64,000 nucleotides of DNA from Terriglobia bacterium (GTDB taxonomy: Bacteria > Acidobacteriota > Terriglobia > Bryobacterales > UBA6623): positions 124,001 to 188,000 of the forward strand of contig VXRL01000016.1 of the NCBI GenBank assembly GCA_009838515.1, written 5' to 3'. This document shows, piece by piece, positions 838 through 29,615 of the stretch (positions within the stretch are counted from its first letter, which is position 1; every line of letters begins with the position of its first letter). The position numbers and the translations under genes were made by a program. The notes under the pieces were generated by a model. The model worked only from the letters and a program-made list of their open reading frames with translations. It ran no database searches and was not told the DNA's origin.

Positions 838-3612
838 CTACTCCACCCAGATCGGCGAACTCCACGCCACCTGGCCATCGTTCTGCACGACGCGGATGTA
901 GTAGTAGTTCGACCCGGCCTCGAAGTTCCGGTCCGTGTATTCGAACGAGTACTCCTCGTGGTTCGGGTGGCTCGTGTAAACGATCTCCTGATTCTTGACG
1001 ATCACGAACTGCTTGATCCGATCAGTCCCCACTGCCCGGATCAGCAGCCGGGGCGCCTGCTGGGAATTGACGATGTCGCCCATGATGTGGTGCCGCCCGC
1101 TAGCGTCCACGGCTTGGAAGTCCAGAATGATGTTGTCCGTAGCACCGTAGGCGTGGCGCGCCTTCAGCGCAGCGAACATTGACTCGCGGGTGAACTCCTC
1201 CGCCACGATCATGGCGTAGGAAATGTGCGTCGACCAGTGGTCGGACGAGGCTTGCACGCCGATCTTGTAGCCCTTGCGCAAGGCGTCCCACCAGTACCCG
1301 ATCGGATTGAAGCCGGAGCGCTGCTCGCGGAGCTTTTGCGCAGACGCCGCCAGCGGCGCGCCCATGTATTCGTAGCTGGCCCGGTACCCCTGGAAGATCT
1401 CCAACAACGGCTCGACCTCTGGATCGTTGTTGAACCAATCCGTGCCCTGCGCCGTGCCGGAGCTGTGCGGCATTGAGATGCCGTCATTTTCGTGCAGGTA
1501 GGCGTACAGCTTCTCGGCGCGCTCCTCGCCGCGACGCTCGGCATCCGGGATCGGCAGCGTCCGCGTGCCGCGTTTGCCGAAGATAATGTTGCGGTGCCCG
1601 TTCGGGAAGGTGAGCGACCGCTCGTAGCCGAACATGGGCACGAACGTCCCGGGCACGTGGAACAGGTCCGCCAGCTTCTCGTCCTGCCACCAAGTGAACT
1701 CTTGGTCGTAGCCCAGCTGGTGGTCAGTCGGCACGATGTAGTCAAATCCGACTGCGTCTAGGGCGTACCGATACACCTCGATCAGCGAGCCGTCGTACTT
1801 GAAGTCCTGCGAGACGTCGGTATGGCGATGCATGTCGCCGCGATAGATCTTGAACTGCCGCTTCCCCGCATCGACGACGTAGCCCCGAACCGCCTCGATG
1901 TTGCGCTCCTCGAATGGATGGACCGGCACCGCCTCGGCAAACGGCTCGGAGTACTGCGCGAAGTTCCCCGCGGAATAGTCAGGCTGGCCAGCGGCCTCGC
2001 CCAGGCTGGCCGCATAGATCTCCGCGTTCTGCGGCACGGCAGTCGCGAAGGTGCGGTTGTCGGTCATCCAAGCCGCCAACAACTCCTCGCCCACAAGCGC
2101 CACGGCGGGACGCTTCTCAATCGAGCCCTGGCTATGCGCCAATGGCACCGGATGCGACCATCCTGTGCCATCGAAGCGTGTCAGGAGCGTCTCCCACATC
2201 ATGCGCGCCCCGATGCTGTGCGCCCGCTGGCGGGTCCAGTGCCGGAAGAGCATCGTCAACGTCCCGCTGCCATCGAACGCCAGTTGCGGATTCTCGAAGT
2301 TGGGGAACAAGCGGTAGACATAGAACGGCTCCAGTTCCGCCTTGGGCTCCACCCACGAACCGCCCGAGCGCTTCACGATCTGGATCGAGCGCTCTTGGTG
2401 CAACGGCACTGCCAGCGGCGGGGTGACCAAGTACCCCTGGTCCTTGCCCCAATTCGTGCCCGATTCGTCCCACGCCAGCCATGGCGTGCCATCTGGAGCA
2501 ACCGCCACGTTCGCATGCGCCTGGAAGCGCGGACTGCTGGTGACCTGTTCGACATCGCCCAGCTTCCCGCCGGCGTACGAGCGGTAGAACACGTCGTAGT
2601 TGCCGCCGTCGTATCCGTCCCATACGACATGCGCCTGGCCATCCGGTCCGCCAGCCACCTGGGGCTCCCAGTCATTGGCGGGCGACTCGCTGACTTGCAG
2701 CGCCTCTCCCCAAGCTCCGTCCCACACGCGCATCCATATATCCGTCTGCCCACTGCCTGCCGTACCTTGCGCGCTCTGCCACACCACGGCAACCTTGCCA
2801 TCGCGAGTCGCCGCAGCCCGGTGGAACGTATTCGAGCCAGCGGTGCTGATCTTCTGAGGATCCCCCCAGTCCGCGCCGTCCAGCAGCCTGTCCGCCTCGT
2901 CCCATCGTGTGCCTGCCCGCTGGCTCCAAAACACCCATAGCCGCCCAGCGCCATCGGCAGCGGCCGACGCGCGCCAGACATCGGCCGGCGCGGGGGTGAC
3001 TTCCTGGGCGCTCTCCCACGATCCGTCGCGGCGCAGTCGCACCAGCACCTTGTCGCCCCGATCCTTGTAGGCCACCCACGCCGCCGCGGCGACGCCGTCG
3101 GAGACCTGCGCGATCGCTGCCTCGTCATCCTCGTACTCGGCCCCTGACAGCTTCTCGACGGTAGGCGTCAGGCTGGCTGTAGCGCGCCCATCGAGAAACG
3201 ATTTCGACCCTCCTGCCAGATCTCCGATGCGGAACGCGAAGTTGCCTTGTTTGGTGCGCACTCGCAGGCTGGTCGCGTCATCGCCGTCTACTACCGCGAA
3301 CAGGCCCACCGGCGAATGCTGTGTTGGCGGCAACTCCGCCGGGCTCATCTCGTTGTAGTTCACCCGCGGAAACCCGCGGATCTGCTCTTCACGAGTCGTG
3401 GCTCTCCATGCGCTCTCTCCGGTAAGCTCGTCCTCGCCTATGAAGTGGCGCTCCTCCAAGAGGAGCAGCTCCCCTCCGGACACGCGAATGGAGCCGTCCC
3501 AAGCCTCCACGGACTCGGCCTTTTCGCCCAAGCTGATGTAGATCGTCGTCGGAGCCGACTCAGCGGACAACTGCGCCGCACACAGGAGTAGAAAGACCAG
3601 GGAACTTCGCAT
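838..3612 (-). CDS. Secreted DUF3604-family protein with N-terminal beta-propeller-like region
   Basis: Long ORF (ORF track 838-3666; internal ATG at 3612 gives signal peptide MRSSLVFLLLCAAQLSAES); C-terminal YRGDMHRHTDVSQDFKYDGSLIEVYRYALDAVGFDYIVPTDH is typical of DUF3604. Confidence 0.8.
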   Translation of the reverse strand: MRSSLVFLLLCAAQLSAESAPTTIYISLGEKAESVEAWDGSIRVSGGELLLLEERHFIGEDELTGESAWRATTREEQIRGFPRVNYNEMSPAELPPTQHSPVGLFAVVDGDDATSLRVRTKQGNFAFRIGDLAGGSKSFLDGRATASLTPTVEKLSGAEYEDDEAAIAQVSDGVAAAAWVAYKDRGDKVLVRLRRDGSWESAQEVTPAPADVWRASAAADGAGRLWVFWSQRAGTRWDEADRLLDGADWGDPQKISTAGSNTFHRAAATRDGKVAVVWQSAQGTAGSGQTDIWMRVWDGAWGEALQVSESPANDWEPQVAGGPDGQAHVVWDGYDGGNYDVFYRSYAGGKLGDVEQVTSSPRFQAHANVAVAPDGTPWLAWDESGTNWGKDQGYLVTPPLAVPLHQERSIQIVKRSGGSWVEPKAELEPFYVYRLFPNFENPQLAFDGSGTLTMLFRHWTRQRAHSIGARMMWETLLTRFDGTGWSHPVPLAHSQGSIEKRPAVALVGEELLAAWMTDNRTFATAVPQNAEIYAASLGEAAGQPDYSAGNFAQYSEPFAEAVPVHPFEERNIEAVRGYVVDAGKRQFKIYRGDMHRHTDVSQDFKYDGSLIEVYRYALDAVGFDYIVPTDHQLGYDQEFTWWQDEKLADLFHVPGTFVPMFGYERSLTFPNGHRNIIFGKRGTRTLPIPDAERRGEERAEKLYAYLHENDGISMPHSSGTAQGTDWFNNDPEVEPLLEIFQGYRASYEYMGAPLAASAQKLREQRSGFNPIGYWWDALRKGYKIGVQASSDHWSTHISYAMIVAEEFTRESMFAALKARHAYGATDNIILDFQAVDASGRHHIMGDIVNSQQAPRLLIRAVGTDRIKQFVIVKNQEIVYTSHPNHEEYSFEYTDRNFEAGSNYYYIRVVQNDGQVAWSSPIWVE

Positions 3613-21836: not shown

Positions 21837-22907
21837 ATGCATTCCCGACCCAGCAAGGAAGAGCTGCTTTCCTCGCCGACCAAACCGTTCGCAGTCGACG
21901 ATGCCAACTCGGCGTCCTCTCTGCTTGAGAAGATGGCCGACACCGCATTCCAAGGGCGCCAGCTTGGACAGGCCTTCGCGGCGTGGAAGGCGATGCTGGC
22001 CGATCCGGAATGCACCATCCTGATGGGCCTGTCCGGCGCCATGGTGCCGGCGGGCATGCGTCGGCTCGTGAGGTTCATGATCGAGAACCGCTTGATCGAC
22101 ATCCTGACCTCGACGGGTGCGAACTTCTTTCACGACATCCACGAAACCAAGGGCTTCCACCACTACCAAGGGTCGGCCGACATGGACGACGAGGCGCTTG
22201 GCGAGGCCATGGTGGATCGCATGTACGACGTGCTGGCGGACGAGGTCCGCTTTCGTGAGCACGATCTGTGGATCGGCAGCTTCGCTGCGCGGCTCGACCA
22301 GTCGCGCCCCTACACGACACGCGAGTTTCTCTACCTGCTGGGAAAGGAAGTCGGGCGTGATTGCTCGGAGGACGGCATCGTGACTGCGGCGGCCAAGCAT
22401 GACGTGCCCCTGTTCTGCCCCGCAATCGGCGATAGTTCGATCGGCATCGGTGTCGCCGAGAGCAGGCACCGCGGGGAGAACCGCCTGATGTTCGACATGA
22501 TGGCGGACGTGCTGGAGATCACCAACGCAGTCGCCGACTCCAAGGCGACCGGGGTGATCTACTTCGGCGGCGGAACGCCCAAGAACTACACCCAGCAGTC
22601 CGAGGTTGTCGCCATCCTCATGGACCGGGGCAAGGAGGGCCACCGTTACGGCATTCAGATCGTCACTGATGCACCGCACTGGGGTGGCTTGTCCGGCTGC
22701 ACGCTGGCCGAATCGCAGAGCTGGGGCAAGATCGCCAAGGGCGCGACGATGGTCGACTGCCACTGCGACTCGACCATAGCCATGCCGCTGCTGGTATCGG
22801 CCTTGGCCGAGCAGACCGAGCTGATCAAGAACCGCAGGCCGCCCTCATTCGACATGGGGCGGGTCCTCAAGATCCGCCTGCCGACAGCGGCGCGGGACGG
22901 GCACTAG
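21837..22907 (+). CDS. Deoxyhypusine synthase-family protein
   Basis: 356 aa; LTSTGANFFHDIHETKGFHHYQG, FCPAIGDSSIGIG, GVIYFGGGTPKNYTQQ, QSWGKIAKGATMVDCHCDSTIAMPLLVSAL (SWGKI catalytic-Lys region). Confidence 0.85.
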   Translation: MHSRPSKEELLSSPTKPFAVDDANSASSLLEKMADTAFQGRQLGQAFAAWKAMLADPECTILMGLSGAMVPAGMRRLVRFMIENRLIDILTSTGANFFHDIHETKGFHHYQGSADMDDEALGEAMVDRMYDVLADEVRFREHDLWIGSFAARLDQSRPYTTREFLYLLGKEVGRDCSEDGIVTAAAKHDVPLFCPAIGDSSIGIGVAESRHRGENRLMFDMMADVLEITNAVADSKATGVIYFGGGTPKNYTQQSEVVAILMDRGKEGHRYGIQIVTDAPHWGGLSGCTLAESQSWGKIAKGATMVDCHCDSTIAMPLLVSALAEQTELIKNRRPPSFDMGRVLKIRLPTAARDGH

Positions 22908-25900
22908 CGCAGCTGGCTTAGGAATTCGACCAAGTCCACCAGTTCGTCGACGCCCACTTGCTCCTGCAGGTCGTCCGGCATGGCAGAGACCGTCGAAGCC
23001 CTGCGCTCGACAATCTCGCCTTGCGAAAACTCCGCCACGATTCCTCCCTCCATGCGCAGCGTCACGGTCTGGTCGGTCTCGCTGACCACGAAGCCCGAGA
23101 CCTCGTCGTTCCGCGCCAGTGACAGATGCACCAAGTCATAGCTGGGGGAGACGCTGGCGCTCGGATCTAGGATCGCCTCGTAAAGTCCTGCCTTTGGCAG
23201 CTTGTCACCGATCTTCGACAGCTCTGGCCCGAAGTCTGTGCCCGCACCGTTGACGATGTGGCAGTCGCTGCAAGTGGCTGCTTCGAACACGGCCGCACCC
23301 TTGACAGGATCTCCCGTCAACACGAGCAAGTCGGTCATCTGCGGCAGAGGCTCGCTGTCCCGGAGCGGCGGAACCGGGAACAGCTCGGCGGCCTGCTCGC
23401 GCAGCCGCACGTGCATGGAACGCGTGAACGCAGCCCCGGCGACTTCGGCCAGCTCGGCCGGGAAGTCCCCGTCTCGCGCCAAATCCACCAAGGCCTGGGC
23501 GCCCTCGCTGGTGCCGGCCAAGGATCTGACCGCCCGGTCGCGTGCCACCGGCGCCAAGCGCTCGTCCAACAGCATGCTCGCCAACAAGGGCACGCTCGCA
23601 GAAGATCTTGTGTTGCCTACCGCCTCGACTGCGGCCGCGGCCAATTCGGGCTGGCTGACGACAAACTCCCGAATCACGTCCTGCGCTCCGGCCACGAGCA
23701 GCGTCTGCGCCGAAGCAACGCCGACGGGATTGTCTCTGTTGCGGGCAGCGACCTCAACCAGCGACGGATAGTGGCCGGACAGCTCGTAGCGCTGCACGAG
23801 CCGCGCGAACTGCGCAGTCCCTCGACCGCGGCCAAGCAGTCCGTCGATTGCCCGGCGGATATCGGGATCCCGGCGCAAGTCGAGTTCGGGCATCCGCAGC
23901 AGCGCTTCAGCCGCAACAAGAAACGGTCGCGGCTTGCCATCGCGGGCGGGCCCGAAGGCCAGCTGGCGCAAGGCTCGCTCCTTGGCGTCGCCATCTGGCT
24001 GGAAATCGAAGGCTCTTAAGAACCGCGCCGCCTCGGCACTTCCGATATCCGGCGATCCGAGAATCGTCGCTAGGTAGCTGGGGGTGATGGAGGCCCGCGA
24101 CCTCCACACGATGTCCCGGCCAGCCGTGGTGTTCCAGTTCGCGCCGACCATCGCCAGCCAAGCGCCCAAGTGCGAATTCCAATTCCCGGCGGCGCCAATC
24201 CCGAGCGCCTCCAAGTACCAGCGGTCGCCGGCCACGTGCTGGCTGGCTAGGCGCGCCCAGAGCTCCGGTGCTGCGCGGGACGTGTTGCCGCGCAGTGCGA
24301 TCGCACACTCCCGCCTTACATGAGCGGACGGGTCGGCCGCGAGCCGATCCAAGATTGGGACTACGTCAATCCCGGCTTGACGGGCGGCACGCAGCCCGAC
24401 GACCCGAATGTCTTCATTGGGGTCGGCGAGCGCTTGGTCGAGGTAGTCCCGTCCGCGCTCCTCGATACGGGCCAGCAGCCACAACGCCCTCGCGCGCTGG
24501 CGGATATCCGCTCCATCGCGCCACAGCCGCGCCAAGGCATCCTCAGCTTCCGGCCCGCCCCGGTCGAGAGCGTGCCAAGCCAGGAATCTCGTGTCGGAAT
24601 TGGGGCTCTGAAGAGCTTCGACAGCCCCGTCTACAGAGGCAACGTCGTGGGTCGGTGGCCGGTACGCATGCGCTCGCGGCGCGATGCGGAAAATGCGTCC
24701 GCGCGTCGAGTCCTGCTGGCGGTTCCAGCCGATCACCGGGTCATACCAGTCGCTGACGAACAGCGACCCGTCGGGAGCTACGGCGACATCTACCGGCCGG
24801 ACCCACTTGTCACGTGCACCCTTGAGCAGGTCTACCATCCGTGCCGCATAACCGGCGCCGCTCTTGGACGCTAGGATGCCGCGCAACACCCCGGGGCCTG
24901 CATCGGTCGCCAGCACTTGGTCCCAGAATTCGCTCGGCAGCAGACGCCCTTCGTAGGCGGCCACTCCGGTGGGGGAGCCGGCACCTGTAATCAGCAGGTC
25001 TGGCACCACGCCGGGATCGTTCTGGTGCCAGTGCCGCTTCGCGATGTCGCCGTGGCGGCCGGTCCGCTCGGCTTGGTTCCCGGCGCCCGTCAGCTCGTCC
25101 CGGTAGCCATAATTGCCGTACTCAAGGATGTAGTTGATCCGGCAGGCGTAGTTGCCGTCGTTGTCGTTGTCGGACTGCCACAGCCCGCCCAGCGAGTCCA
25201 CCGCTACCTCGTAGTTGTTGCGAAAGTTGTGCCCCAGCACCTCGGTCGTCCCGCCGTCAAGATCGGAGCGGAACACCATGCCTCCGTGGTACGGGCTCGC
25301 AACCCCGATCAGGGCATCCGCGAAGTCAGGCCGCGAACTCGCAGTCCTGTCGCGAAGGCTGCGCTCGTAGTTGCGGTCCAAGATCGGATTGCCGGCACTG
25401 TCAATGACCAGTCGCCCATCTTTGTCGTGGATGTGGCGGCCTCCGTTGCCCATGTTCCAGTAGAATTTCCCGTCCGGACCGAACGACAGAGAGTGCGTCG
25501 AGTGGTCGTTCTGGGGAGCGCCGGAATTGGTGAAGAGGTACTCCTTCTTGTCGGGAACGTCATCGCCATCCTCGTCGGTGAAGACCACCACGTTGGGAGC
25601 GGCGGTCACGATTACCTGATTGCCGAGCACTGCGATTCCCAGCGCGGCATCCACGTCCCGGCCTTGGTAGTAGACCTTGGAGGCGTCGGCGACTCCGTCG
25701 CCATCCGTGTCTTCAAGGATCAGGATGCGATCCCCCTCGGGGCGCATGTCGTTCCTGCCGTGCTCGCGGTAGTTGACGACGTCGCAAGCCCAGACCCGGC
25801 CCCGATGATCGACATCAATATTGGTCGGGTTCGACAGGATCGGCTCGGAAGCGAACAGCGTAGCCTCAAGGCCGGGATAGAGATCGAGGCTTGCGACCGC

Positions 25901-26005
25901 CTCGGCGGCGCTGCGGCGATCCGCGCCACCCGAACCGCAGCCGGTGCAAGCGACTGCGAAGAGCACCGCCAAGAGCGCGAGTTGGCGGCAACGACTCCGG
26001 CTCAT
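22904..26005 (-). CDS. Lipoprotein: membrane-bound dehydrogenase domain (TIGR02604-like), HEAT-like repeats and C-terminal cytochrome c heme-binding domain (TIGR02603-like)
   Basis: ATG 26005 gives MSRSRCRQLALLAVLFAVACTGCGSGG lipoprotein signal; PGLEATLFASEPILSNPTNIDVDHRGRVWACDVVNYREH; C-terminal GAAVFEAATCSDCHIVNGAGTDFGPELS (CxxCH). Confidence 0.8.
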   Translation of the reverse strand: MSRSRCRQLALLAVLFAVACTGCGSGGADRRSAAEAVASLDLYPGLEATLFASEPILSNPTNIDVDHRGRVWACDVVNYREHGRNDMRPEGDRILILEDTDGDGVADASKVYYQGRDVDAALGIAVLGNQVIVTAAPNVVVFTDEDGDDVPDKKEYLFTNSGAPQNDHSTHSLSFGPDGKFYWNMGNGGRHIHDKDGRLVIDSAGNPILDRNYERSLRDRTASSRPDFADALIGVASPYHGGMVFRSDLDGGTTEVLGHNFRNNYEVAVDSLGGLWQSDNDNDGNYACRINYILEYGNYGYRDELTGAGNQAERTGRHGDIAKRHWHQNDPGVVPDLLITGAGSPTGVAAYEGRLLPSEFWDQVLATDAGPGVLRGILASKSGAGYAARMVDLLKGARDKWVRPVDVAVAPDGSLFVSDWYDPVIGWNRQQDSTRGRIFRIAPRAHAYRPPTHDVASVDGAVEALQSPNSDTRFLAWHALDRGGPEAEDALARLWRDGADIRQRARALWLLARIEERGRDYLDQALADPNEDIRVVGLRAARQAGIDVVPILDRLAADPSAHVRRECAIALRGNTSRAAPELWARLASQHVAGDRWYLEALGIGAAGNWNSHLGAWLAMVGANWNTTAGRDIVWRSRASITPSYLATILGSPDIGSAEAARFLRAFDFQPDGDAKERALRQLAFGPARDGKPRPFLVAAEALLRMPELDLRRDPDIRRAIDGLLGRGRGTAQFARLVQRYELSGHYPSLVEVAARNRDNPVGVASAQTLLVAGAQDVIREFVVSQPELAAAAVEAVGNTRSSASVPLLASMLLDERLAPVARDRAVRSLAGTSEGAQALVDLARDGDFPAELAEVAGAAFTRSMHVRLREQAAELFPVPPLRDSEPLPQMTDLLVLTGDPVKGAAVFEAATCSDCHIVNGAGTDFGPELSKIGDKLPKAGLYEAILDPSASVSPSYDLVHLSLARNDEVSGFVVSETDQTVTLRMEGGIVAEFSQGEIVERRASTVSAMPDDLQEQVGVDELVDLVEFLSQLR

Positions 26006-26095
26006 GGTCGATTCGCCCAACAGGCCGCGATGGTGATCGCTACCTCGCGGCGGGCACACGAAGAATACCAAAGCTCGCAGGTCAGCCCGCGGATG

Positions 26096-27163
26096 TCAGC
26101 CGAGCCAGGAATCGAGGTGTTCGGCCACGAAGTCGTCGTCGACGAGATGCGGATACGCGGCACTGACCCGGTCGATTTCCGCATTCTGGCCGGGCGAGAG
26201 CCGCTCCGCCTCGTTCAGGCACCAGTTTCCGGCCAGCAGGCCCTGTCTCCGCAGCACCTCATGAATGCCGGCTATGCAACCGGAGAACCGATTGCGAGTG
26301 TCGAACAGCGCGGAATTCGCGTCGGTGACTTGTGCGTTGAGGCGGAGCAATGCTTCAGGGACGCTACAAGGGTCTGCGGCCATGGACTCCCGGCACTGCC
26401 GCCAGTGGTCACAAGCCGCCTTGGTCCACACAGCCCAGTGGCCAAGCAGGCCGCCCACAAACGCGGCGGACGCACCTCCGCTCGCATAGCGGGTCAGCAG
26501 ATCGCCGATGATGTTGTCGTCATTGCCCGTATACAGCGCGATCTCGTCGGCGCGCCCTGAATCGCAGACCGCTCGCAGCACCTCCAGCGTGCAATACCGA
26601 TCAAACGGGGCCACCTTGATGGCCACCAAGCCCTCGATCTCGCACATGTCGCGCCAGAACTCGTACGGGAGCGGCATGCCCCCGACGGCGGGCTGGAGGT
26701 AGAAGCCCATGATCGGGATCACGTCGGCTACGGCACGGGCGTGGGCCAGGAGTTCGGCGTGGCCGGCTGCCCGAAGGTCGCTAAAGCCCAGTAAGCCAAC
26801 GTGGTAGCCGAGGTCTACGGCGAGACCGGCTTCGCGCACAGCTTGCGCGGTCAGGCCGAGGATTCCGGCGATGCGGATCACGCCGCCTTCGTCGTGCTCC
26901 GCTGACTCTCGCGTGGTGTCAGCAGCAAGCTCGAGTACCGGCCGATACAACCCTACCTTCGGCTCGTGGATCGCAAACTGGGTGGTGTGGACGCCGACAG
27001 CCACTCCTCCCGCCCCGGCGGCGAGGTAGTAGCGCGTCAACGCACGCTGGCGGCGCTCGTCCAAGCGGCGCCGGGAGTCCAGTGCCAGCGGATGCGCGGG
27101 AATCACAGCTCCGGCGCGCAGCCGAGAAACCGCCGCATCCTCCGCGCGCGGGAGAGCGGGCAT
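26096..27163 (-). CDS. DHDPS-family lyase/aldolase
   Basis: 355 aa; ALTRYYLAAGAGGVAVGVHTTQFAIHEPKVGLYRPVLEL, IPIMGFYLQPAVGG, GLVAIKVAPFDRY (Schiff-base Lys region). Confidence 0.75.
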   Translation of the reverse strand: MPALPRAEDAAVSRLRAGAVIPAHPLALDSRRRLDERRQRALTRYYLAAGAGGVAVGVHTTQFAIHEPKVGLYRPVLELAADTTRESAEHDEGGVIRIAGILGLTAQAVREAGLAVDLGYHVGLLGFSDLRAAGHAELLAHARAVADVIPIMGFYLQPAVGGMPLPYEFWRDMCEIEGLVAIKVAPFDRYCTLEVLRAVCDSGRADEIALYTGNDDNIIGDLLTRYASGGASAAFVGGLLGHWAVWTKAACDHWRQCRESMAADPCSVPEALLRLNAQVTDANSALFDTRNRFSGCIAGIHEVLRRQGLLAGNWCLNEAERLSPGQNAEIDRVSAAYPHLVDDDFVAEHLDSWLG

Positions 27164-27197: not shown

Positions 27198-27743
27198 CTA
27201 CGAGTCGGCAGAGACCGCGCCCGTCAACCGGTCAACGACTGTGGCTAGCACCGCAGATGCGCGCTCCTCGATCTCTTCGGCCAGCTGGTCCTGGATCGGG
27301 TGCGGCACGTAGACCGCGTCCAAGTCCGCCCTGCCCAAGGCCGAGGCTTGCGCCCGCGCCGCCGACCGGAACACGTCGGTGGCGATCGGCACCGTGGGGA
27401 TGCCGGAGTTTTCGAGTCGAACCGAGTCGTGCAAACTGCACGTCGTGCAAGACCCTCAATCGGCTAGGGCCTCGATCACCGCGTGCGGCTGCGCCTCGCG
27501 GATATCCGTCAGCACTGCTTCGGGTGCCGGTTTCGCGAACGTCGGCTTGCGAAAGCGCAGCACTTCCGACACTCCGTAGCGCTCCCTGAGCAAGGCATCC
27601 ACGCGATCGAGGAAGACCTCTCCCCCGCCCTTGCTGATATCCAGAAGCGCGATCCGCGCACCGCCGACGGATGCGAGTCTCGGAGGCGCCGAGCCTTCCG
27701 GCAGGGGCCGTTCGTCAAGGGGATTCACGACTGTGAGCGACAT
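27198..27743 (-). CDS. UGSC-family selenoprotein; in-frame UGA (27456-27458) read as selenocysteine
   Basis: Two ORF-track entries (27456-27743 and 27198-27434) are in one frame separated only by TGA plus 7 codons; joined product ...VIEALAD-U-GSCTTCSLHDSVRLENSGIPTVPIATDVFRSAARAQ..., the UGSC motif of the UGSC (seleno)protein family. Confidence 0.88.
27429..27458 (-). promoter_or_regulatory. Candidate bacterial SECIS hairpin immediately 3' of the UGA
   Basis: After UGA: GGGUCUUGCACGAC-GUGCA-GUU-UGCAC-G; perfect 5 bp stem (6 bp with flanking C-G), loop GUU beginning with G, loop starts 19 nt after the UGA. Confidence 0.6.
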
Positions 27744-27830: not shown

Positions 27831-29405
27831 TCAATCGAATTGGTAGCTGACCATCTGGCTGCCGCGAGGCCCGGTGGCCCACGACCCCAGCACGGCTGAG
27901 AACTTCCCGGCGGGCCCGCCGGCCACCATCACGCGAATCGACTCGGGCCGCCGGAATTTCCGGTAGCACCGAACGCCCCGGATCACGCACTCGTCATAAA
28001 AGCCAGCTTCGTGCGTGCCCTCTCCGCCGTCTCCGTCGTATTCGCTCACCGGCACGCCGGTGTTCTCGAATAGGAACTCCACTACATCGCGCTTCGTGAA
28101 ACCGCCGCGGTCCAAGGTAGCCGCATGCTCGGGGCCGATCACCAGTACCGCCTCCGACCGCTTGCAGACGCGATGGGACCACAGGTTCGCGAGCACTGGG
28201 CAGATGGCGCGCAGCAGCACCTTGGGTTCGCGCGCCTTGTGCTCGCTCACCGGGCGAGGCGGCTCGGCGCAGAAGAATGTGACCGCGTTGCGACCCGCGT
28301 CGATTCCGAAGTCTTCGGCCAGCGGTCCCCACGGGCTCACCTCCTCGTTCTCGCCGATCACGAAACTGAACCGCCCCGGGTTCCCCATCGTCGACATATC
28401 GATCCGGCCGGGAGCCGCGCCCCCGAGATTACGCAGGATCAGTTGCAATGCCCGACCGATCGTGGAATTGGCGCGCGCCGCATTCGAAAACACGTTGCTG
28501 CCGCAAGCGAATCCCAGCTCGAGGCGGACCGGACCGTTCACGATGGCTAGGGGAGCGGCGAAGTGGGTGGTGCCCTGCACTCCATGGATGTCGAGGCGCT
28601 CGTCGCACAGGGCGCGGACCGCGGGCACGAGGACCCTCATGTACTCGGGCCGGCAGCCCGCCATGACAGCATTCGCCGCGATTTTCTCAGCGCTGGCTGC
28701 GCCAAAGTTTGGCGGCACGTGCGCGACCACCTCGTCCGGGTTCAAGCCGCTCTCCGCCAGCATCCGCTCGACTCGCTCCACCGTCGGCGGCACCACAGGC
28801 AGGGGGTCGGCATAGCCGCTCTCGTAGCACCATTCCTCGGCATCGGCCTCGGTGGGCAGGTCGATTCTCGAAGCCCGGCCTGCCCGGCGGGAATACAGAT
28901 CGGGAATTTCAGCAGCGGCCGCATCCGACTCTGGTTCCAAGTGGCGCGAAACGCACCCCGGCTGGAAGTCCGGGTTGCCGTCGCCGGTCCGGGCCAACTC
29001 CGGATCCGGCACGTCCAGCAGCTTCGCGAGGTCCCCGCCAAGGCGATTCAGGTCGGCCTTGTCAAAGCCTTGCGAACTGGCCAGGACCCGACCCGACCGG
29101 TCCAGCAGGAACAGCGTCGGAACCGCCTCCAGGCCGAAGCCAGCGCTAGCCGCCAGGTCGCGATCGAAGCGCAGGGGAAGATCCGCTCCCAAGGAGCGCA
29201 TCAACTTGTCGGTTGGGGCAATCTCGTCCTGAGAGACGGCCACCACGTGGTCGCCAGACCCAAGACTGCGGGAGAGACTGTCCAAGTAGCGCAGCGCCAA
29301 GTGGCACGCCGGGCAGTCGGCCTTGAAGAAAGCGAGCAGGGAGGGGCCGGAGAGTGGCTGGCCCGGGACTGGGGGCGCAACGACGCCGTTGGAGAGCATG
29401 GGCAT
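27831..29405 (-). CDS. Thioredoxin-like (CPAC) N-terminal domain fused to a large uncharacterised domain; predicted operon partner of the UGSC selenoprotein
   Basis: ATG 29405 inside ORF 27831-29513; GPSLLAFFKADCPACHLALRYLDSLSRSLG...VPTLFLLDRSGRVLASSQGF thioredoxin fold, then about 350 aa unknown; about 90 nt upstream of the UGSC gene, same strand. Confidence 0.75.
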   Translation of the reverse strand: MPMLSNGVVAPPVPGQPLSGPSLLAFFKADCPACHLALRYLDSLSRSLGSGDHVVAVSQDEIAPTDKLMRSLGADLPLRFDRDLAASAGFGLEAVPTLFLLDRSGRVLASSQGFDKADLNRLGGDLAKLLDVPDPELARTGDGNPDFQPGCVSRHLEPESDAAAAEIPDLYSRRAGRASRIDLPTEADAEEWCYESGYADPLPVVPPTVERVERMLAESGLNPDEVVAHVPPNFGAASAEKIAANAVMAGCRPEYMRVLVPAVRALCDERLDIHGVQGTTHFAAPLAIVNGPVRLELGFACGSNVFSNAARANSTIGRALQLILRNLGGAAPGRIDMSTMGNPGRFSFVIGENEEVSPWGPLAEDFGIDAGRNAVTFFCAEPPRPVSEHKAREPKVLLRAICPVLANLWSHRVCKRSEAVLVIGPEHAATLDRGGFTKRDVVEFLFENTGVPVSEYDGDGGEGTHEAGFYDECVIRGVRCYRKFRRPESIRVMVAGGPAGKFSAVLGSWATGPRGSQMVSYQFD

Positions 29406-29615
29406 GATTTTTGGGCGCGGCGGATCGCGTGGGCCTGCGAGCCCCATCCTACAAGAAGTGCATCTGCGCGTATTCGCTCGACCTCCTGACGCACAGGTGG
29501 ACAAGTTCCACAACGGGGTTGGGAGCTCAACGGGCCAAAGTTTCCTGCGGCGGGTACGCGGCCCTCTCGATTGCTACACTAGCTATGTAAGCGAGGCGTT
29601 GCTCTCCCGCCCGCA

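Follow-up and report, generated by a model that had tools for sequence, protein, structure and literature searches.

A UGSC-family selenoprotein gene and its thioredoxin-bearing partner gene in a Bryobacterales genome

The UGSC locus

We analysed a window of 64,000 nucleotides from the genome of a Bryobacterales (Acidobacteriota) MAG (5.84-Mb assembly, 99% complete). The following genes and features make up the locus described here:

27198 to 27743, minus strand: UGSC-family selenoprotein gene, 181 aa including Sec96 (frame and family models)
27456 to 27458, minus strand: UGA codon, predicted to be read as selenocysteine (Sec; U96 of UGSCTTC); TGA in homologues, Cys in distant ones
27428 to 27442, minus strand: core of a putative bSECIS hairpin, CGUGCA-GUU-UGCACG (fold, conservation, covariation)
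27831 to 29405, minus strand: putative obligate partner gene, 524 aa, from ATG 29405 to stop TGA 27831-27833 (Redoxin match, AlphaFold2, co-occurrence, adjacency)
27834 to 28913, minus strand: C-terminal domain of the partner, ~350 aa (alignment; fusion to UGSC in loci L133-L136)
26096 to 27163, minus strand: DHDPS/N-acetylneuraminate-lyase-like gene, 355 aa, downstream of UGSC (weak PDB match, 3.5e-5)

The UGSC gene starts at ATG 27743 and stops at TAG 27198-27200, and the TGA at 27456-27458 is the only interruption of this frame. The earlier note on this DNA described an open reading frame ending at that TGA and the same frame continuing to 27198, and its coordinates and frame are exact; of the “TAG/TGA-type” terminal stop that it placed at 27198, the TAG stands and the TGA does not. 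The joined translation around the UGA reads LADUGSCTTCSLHDS, with U at position 96; UGSCTTC corresponds to residues 96-102, and the [U/C]GSC motif is invariant in the UGSC alignment. The family models match on either side of the TGA: Pfam UGSC (PF24696) covers residues 5-174 of the joined protein (E = 1.3e-45, 156 bits versus a cut-off of 25), and NCBIfam NF041046 aligns over positions 2-147 of 147, unbroken across the TGA (150.4 bits versus a curated cut-off of 125). The proposal that the joined 181-aa protein carries the UGSC-family motif is thus borne out by an exact motif and by whole-length matches to both models.

The window gene, present as one copy in its genome, adds a new member to a selenoprotein family that has been known since 2008, when it was described from GOS metagenomes (PMC2398784). 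It resembles the family defined by PF24696/NF041046 in its whole-length match, UGSC motif, predicted bSECIS and Sec position, and differs in nothing essential; its genome belongs to an uncultivated lineage of Acidobacteriota.

The protein encoded at 26096-27163 (minus strand) had no Pfam or NCBIfam match. We considered this downstream gene as a third component and rejected it, as it is present in the closest loci only; it is probably a lineage-specific neighbour outside the UGSC unit. Elsewhere in the window, a bacterial deoxyhypusine-synthase-like gene (21837-22907, plus strand) has a convergent 4-base overlap with the gene for a PVC-type heme-binding CxxCH protein (22904-26071, minus strand).

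Decoding of the in-frame UGA

A search for selA, selB, selD and tRNA-Sec, which the earlier note had proposed as a check, found all four in the window's own genome: tRNA-Sec with anticodon TCA (71.2 bits versus a cut-off of 47), and SelB, SelA and SelD at 374, 517 and 304 bits, respectively, all above the curated cut-offs. Since tRNA-Sec is present in 182 of 200 genomes of this order, its co-occurrence with UGSC carries no information here.

Homologues were searched with the motif masked in the query, which leaves no preference for Sec or Cys. TGA occupies the Sec codon in 80/80 of the best public homologous loci, which are titled Acidobacteria, Gemmatimonadetes, Sumerlaeota, Chloroflexi, Proteobacteria, Actinomycetota and others. 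The family occurs in 23 of 200 relatives, with an in-frame TGA inside the match in all 23. TGA is likewise found at the Sec column in Paracoccus ferrooxidans and Acidovorax sp. T1, where public annotation gives two “hypothetical proteins” and a fragment, respectively. More distant, plasmid-borne homologues in Natrinema zhouii, Arthrobacter sp. ERGS1:01, Halalkalicoccus jeotgali and Embleya carry Cys at this column, and deep UGSC paralogues in one Acidobacteriota genus have other residues instead of Sec or Cys. The expectation that homologues show Sec or Cys at the UGA position therefore holds for the best 80 loci and for the distant homologues, with the deep paralogues of that genus as the exception.

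The putative bSECIS hairpin begins 13 nt past the UGA and has a 6-bp stem and a 3-nt loop, GUU, with G at loop position 1; the UGA and the loop are 19 nt apart, additional outer base pairs span ~27414-27455, and the folding energy is -16.1 kcal/mol (45 nt). The hairpin agrees with every constraint of the published bSECIS model (stem of 4-16 bp; loop of 3-9 nt, located 16-37 nt from the UGA and with G among its first two positions; MFE <= -7.5; PMC13188914). Compared with shuffled sequences, single-sequence folding was not significant (z from -0.6 to -1.8), and Rfam at gathering thresholds gave no match within the window, so that no Rfam SECIS model fits. The case for a bSECIS rests on conservation, for which comparison gives strong evidence. 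At codons +5 to +8 (ACG/TCG, TGC, AGT, NTG), the third base is invariant in 63/63 dereplicated loci, and the flanking synonymous sites on either side vary freely in the same set. Furthermore, compensatory changes preserve the stem in divergent Sec members: L043/L044 have G-C in place of A-U, and L133, L143 and L144 have G-C in place of C-G, a swap that coincides with the replacement of Cys102 by Trp.

Standard gene callers stop at the TGA, as they would if the gene were decaying and the TGA were the product of a nonsense mutation or of a sequencing error; however, this reading is contradicted by the conservation of TGA in 80/80 homologues of several phyla, by the complete Sec machinery and by a hairpin frozen at synonymous sites, and its probability is negligible. 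Even less probable is a genome-wide reassignment of UGA to another amino acid, which has the in-frame TGA in its favour and nothing more: UGA acts as an ordinary stop elsewhere in the genome, terminating the upstream partner gene at 27831-27833, so that the recoding is local, and a tRNA-Sec with anticodon TCA is present. Sec insertion is generally inefficient and release factor 2 competes for the codon, which would favour a 95-aa termination product as the main functional protein, with Sec readthrough minor and selenium-regulated. This is very unlikely, given that the catalytic motif and the strongly conserved C-terminal half come after the UGA and that the Cys homologues are full length.

Reading the TGA as Sec rather than as a nonsense mutation, as the earlier note did, is instead upheld by the conserved TGA, Cys in distant homologues, the complete machinery and the bSECIS; neither of the two refuting conditions named in that note applied. 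On these comparisons, the UGA at 27456-27458 is almost certainly decoded as Sec by SelB and tRNA-Sec, directed by the predicted downstream bSECIS, and would yield one 181-aa selenoprotein.

Locus L138 (G003:C229) contains a second, divergent UGSC-partner pair, in which the codon in the Sec column is TAG and is preceded by a TGA at a distance of three codons (~3029-3040, plus strand), an arrangement that is probably due to decay or assembly error. UGSC proteins with UAG-encoded Sec have been reported in Geodermatophilaceae (PMC5330540).

The partner gene and its linkage to UGSC

A partner gene immediately upstream, missing from the earlier note, sits 87 nt from the UGSC gene. Its open reading frame opens at TTG 29513; its closest relatives start at the ATG equivalent to 29405, and the TTG start, with the extension over 29405-29513 (minus strand), is probably wrong. 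The N-terminal domain is a ResA/TlpA-like thioredoxin with C31-P-A-C34 as its CxxC (Redoxin match, 8.9e-9; sequence match to ResA, 2.8e-11), and in the AlphaFold2 model of the partner (pLDDT 89) the thioredoxin part matches ResA/DsbE structures. The partner has a further conserved Cys, C151. The domain is thus like ResA/TlpA/DsbE in CxxC, fold and sequence, but the partner differs from these proteins by a conserved ~350-aa domain that follows the thioredoxin and has no known relative. No Pfam or NCBIfam model covers this C-terminal part, Foldseek with the partner recovered the thioredoxin domain only among the matches listed, and a search of viral contigs for relatives of the partner found none. 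In the alignment, the domain displays a dense set of invariant residues besides Cys. A fusion of UGSC to “Unknown_1” was reported in GOS data (PMC2398784), and the C-terminal domain of the partner is probably this “Unknown_1”.

The C-terminal domain was found in 77 of the 80 best public UGSC loci. In 72 of the 80, the partner is on the same strand and within 160 nt of UGSC, the reading frames overlapping in 22 of these 72; partner and UGSC are divergent in two further loci, and the three loci without the partner include contigs cut near UGSC. Among the 200 relatives, the domain and UGSC are confined to the identical 23 genomes, and in a phylum-wide sample of 396 genomes the domain again occurs in the 39 that have UGSC, and additionally as a fragment of 46 codons where one contig ends; the genomes are related, so these counts are not independent events, but the genomes represent 10 of 75 and 17 of 211 genera, respectively. 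Both genes are still present in G066, where they lie on separate contigs. In other Acidobacteriota, UGSC and the partner domain form a single polypeptide of ~570-650 aa with UGSC N-terminal (for example, L133-L136). Co-occurrence, adjacency and fusion make it very probable that UGSC and the partner are a functional unit. The UGSC family itself is already known; what is new here is its obligate partner.

Three genomes of genus g119 (Acidobacteriota), G312, G472 and G321, contain 25, 24 and 17 UGSC-like domains, most of them in frames of ~560-650 codons, and those examined are fused to the partner domain. One in-frame TGA is found in 18, 14 and 16 of these domains, respectively; others have lost the Sec/Cys residue.

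The probable source of reducing equivalents and the genes around the pair vary among loci. In Arthrobacter, the partner is without a fused thioredoxin and the operon is trxB-trxA-partner-UGSC; the locus (L141, 4001-4816 and neighbours) is on a plasmid of Arthrobacter sp. ERGS1:01, its UGSC is the Cys form, and phosphosulfolactate synthase is encoded nearby, as it also is near UGSC in Natrinema zhouii. In five Sulfitobacter loci and one Hyphomonadaceae MAG locus (L082, L085, L093, L103, L107 and L113), selA-selB-tRNASec lies immediately upstream of partner-UGSC, with SelA and SelB confirmed with NCBIfam for L103. Sulfitobacter strains with this locus include S. brevis DSM 11443 and S. noctilucae NB-68. 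UGSC may be a main reason for Sec retention in these alphaproteobacterial loci; no paper in the literature searched pairs Sulfitobacter with selenoproteins. Other neighbours differ by lineage and include acyl-CoA dehydrogenase-like and CoA-transferase-like proteins (judged by eye from sequence in the public loci), phosphosulfolactate synthase and PEP mutase/isocitrate lyase-type proteins. Because the neighbours differ between lineages, we name no substrate.

Fold, remote relatives and possible function

The AlphaFold2 model of UGSC (pLDDT 86) has alternating beta strands and alpha helices, with Sec after a strand. Foldseek matches in the PDB were weak, with TM 0.34-0.58 for the top ones, and the best were to RpiB, lumazine synthase and flavodoxin-type proteins; PDB sequence searches gave chance matches only. 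A thioredoxin-like fold was suggested for UGSC in 2008 (PMC2398784). The predicted model does not have this topology, and no thioredoxin is among the best PDB matches, which makes the proposal appear doubtful.

Sub-threshold similarity to GrdF was detected in 35 of 54 UGSC members and to GrdB in 33 of 54; in the window protein, the similar stretch surrounds the Sec site. The curated cut-offs of TIGR01917 and TIGR01918 were not reached (19.6 bits versus 602 and 13.7 versus 65, respectively), and the Pfam model of the GrdB family was not among the UGSC matches at E 0.1. An hhalign comparison with GrdB-type selenoproteins of the relatives aligned Sec to Sec with E = 2.1e-4 but a probability of 46%, from an 11-sequence profile. 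The relation of UGSC to GrdB is probably remote homology, not membership. UGSC shares UxxC with GrdB/GrdF (selenoprotein B of glycine/sarcosine/betaine reductase) and with PrdB of D-proline reductase, and the Sec columns align tentatively in the HMM and profile comparisons; however, UGSC is a single short domain with family scores far below the curated cut-offs, and none of the models searched identifies its companion as a GrdE/PrdA-type subunit. UGSC hosts, in contrast, include marine Sulfitobacter and haloarchaea. The reductant of glycine reductase is thioredoxin (PMC13188914). GrdB/PrdB-type selenoproteins are themselves scattered in the order of the window's genome (L147-L154 and L156; frames of ~245-290 codons, with UPxC in those read), and G053 (L155) encodes one with Cys instead of Sec.

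Overall, the best explanation is that a Sec-decoded UGSC protein acts with a thioredoxin-fused partner, to which we assign a probability of roughly 85%. Sequence comparison supports three elements of it: the decoding of Sec, the redox pair in UxxC and an apparently obligate partner that bears a thioredoxin. Not every member of the family is a redox enzyme, some deep paralogues being without Sec or Cys.

By analogy, UGSC could be a thioredoxin-fed selenol reductase in which Sec96 and Cys99 act on a substrate and the partner recycles the enzyme, a mechanism that we rate slightly below even odds. The Sec96-Cys99 selenol/thiol pair, which follows a beta strand of the predicted flavodoxin-like alpha/beta fold, would attack the substrate, the attack by Sec being modelled on glycine and D-proline reductases. 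Cys99 would then resolve the Se-S or Se-substrate bond, the CxxC of the partner's thioredoxin domain would re-reduce UGSC, and the C-terminal domain of the partner might bind or activate the substrate.

A less probable, though still serious, competitor is that UGSC works as a general oxidoreductase, of the thiol-disulfide or the peroxide-detoxifying kind, which the partner thioredoxin services and which has no dedicated metabolic substrate. The UxxC motif and a thioredoxin fused to, or encoded beside, the partner agree with this view, as does the large number of redox proteins among the selenoproteins of aquatic bacteria (PMC2398784). However, the predicted UGSC fold is not thioredoxin-like, the large partner domain with its dense invariant residues beyond Cys suggests a specific substrate, and the probable remote relatives of UGSC are GrdB-type substrate reductases.

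A selenol reductase recycled by its partner could be placed in a wider frame, which we put forward tentatively, as one possibility among several: UGSC and the partner might be the two subunits of a selenoenzyme driven by thioredoxin, which would form a third branch next to the glycine and D-proline reductases. It would be found mainly in marine, soil and sponge-associated bacteria, would have moved between lineages, sometimes with its own selA-selB-tRNASec cassette, and would have expanded in one Acidobacteriota genus, where a genome can carry as many as 25 paralogues, most of them fused.

Few selenoprotein families are commoner than UGSC in aquatic metagenomes (PMC2398784); the function of UGSC has been described as uncharacterised (PMC13188914). 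Public annotation still splits UGSC genes, as in Paracoccus ferrooxidans. The thioredoxin-bearing obligate partner provides the first concrete lead to the function of the family, and this partner, the thioredoxin fused to it and the compact locus of named Sulfitobacter strains (selA-selB-tRNASec-partner-UGSC) point to two-protein biochemistry in a cultured group.
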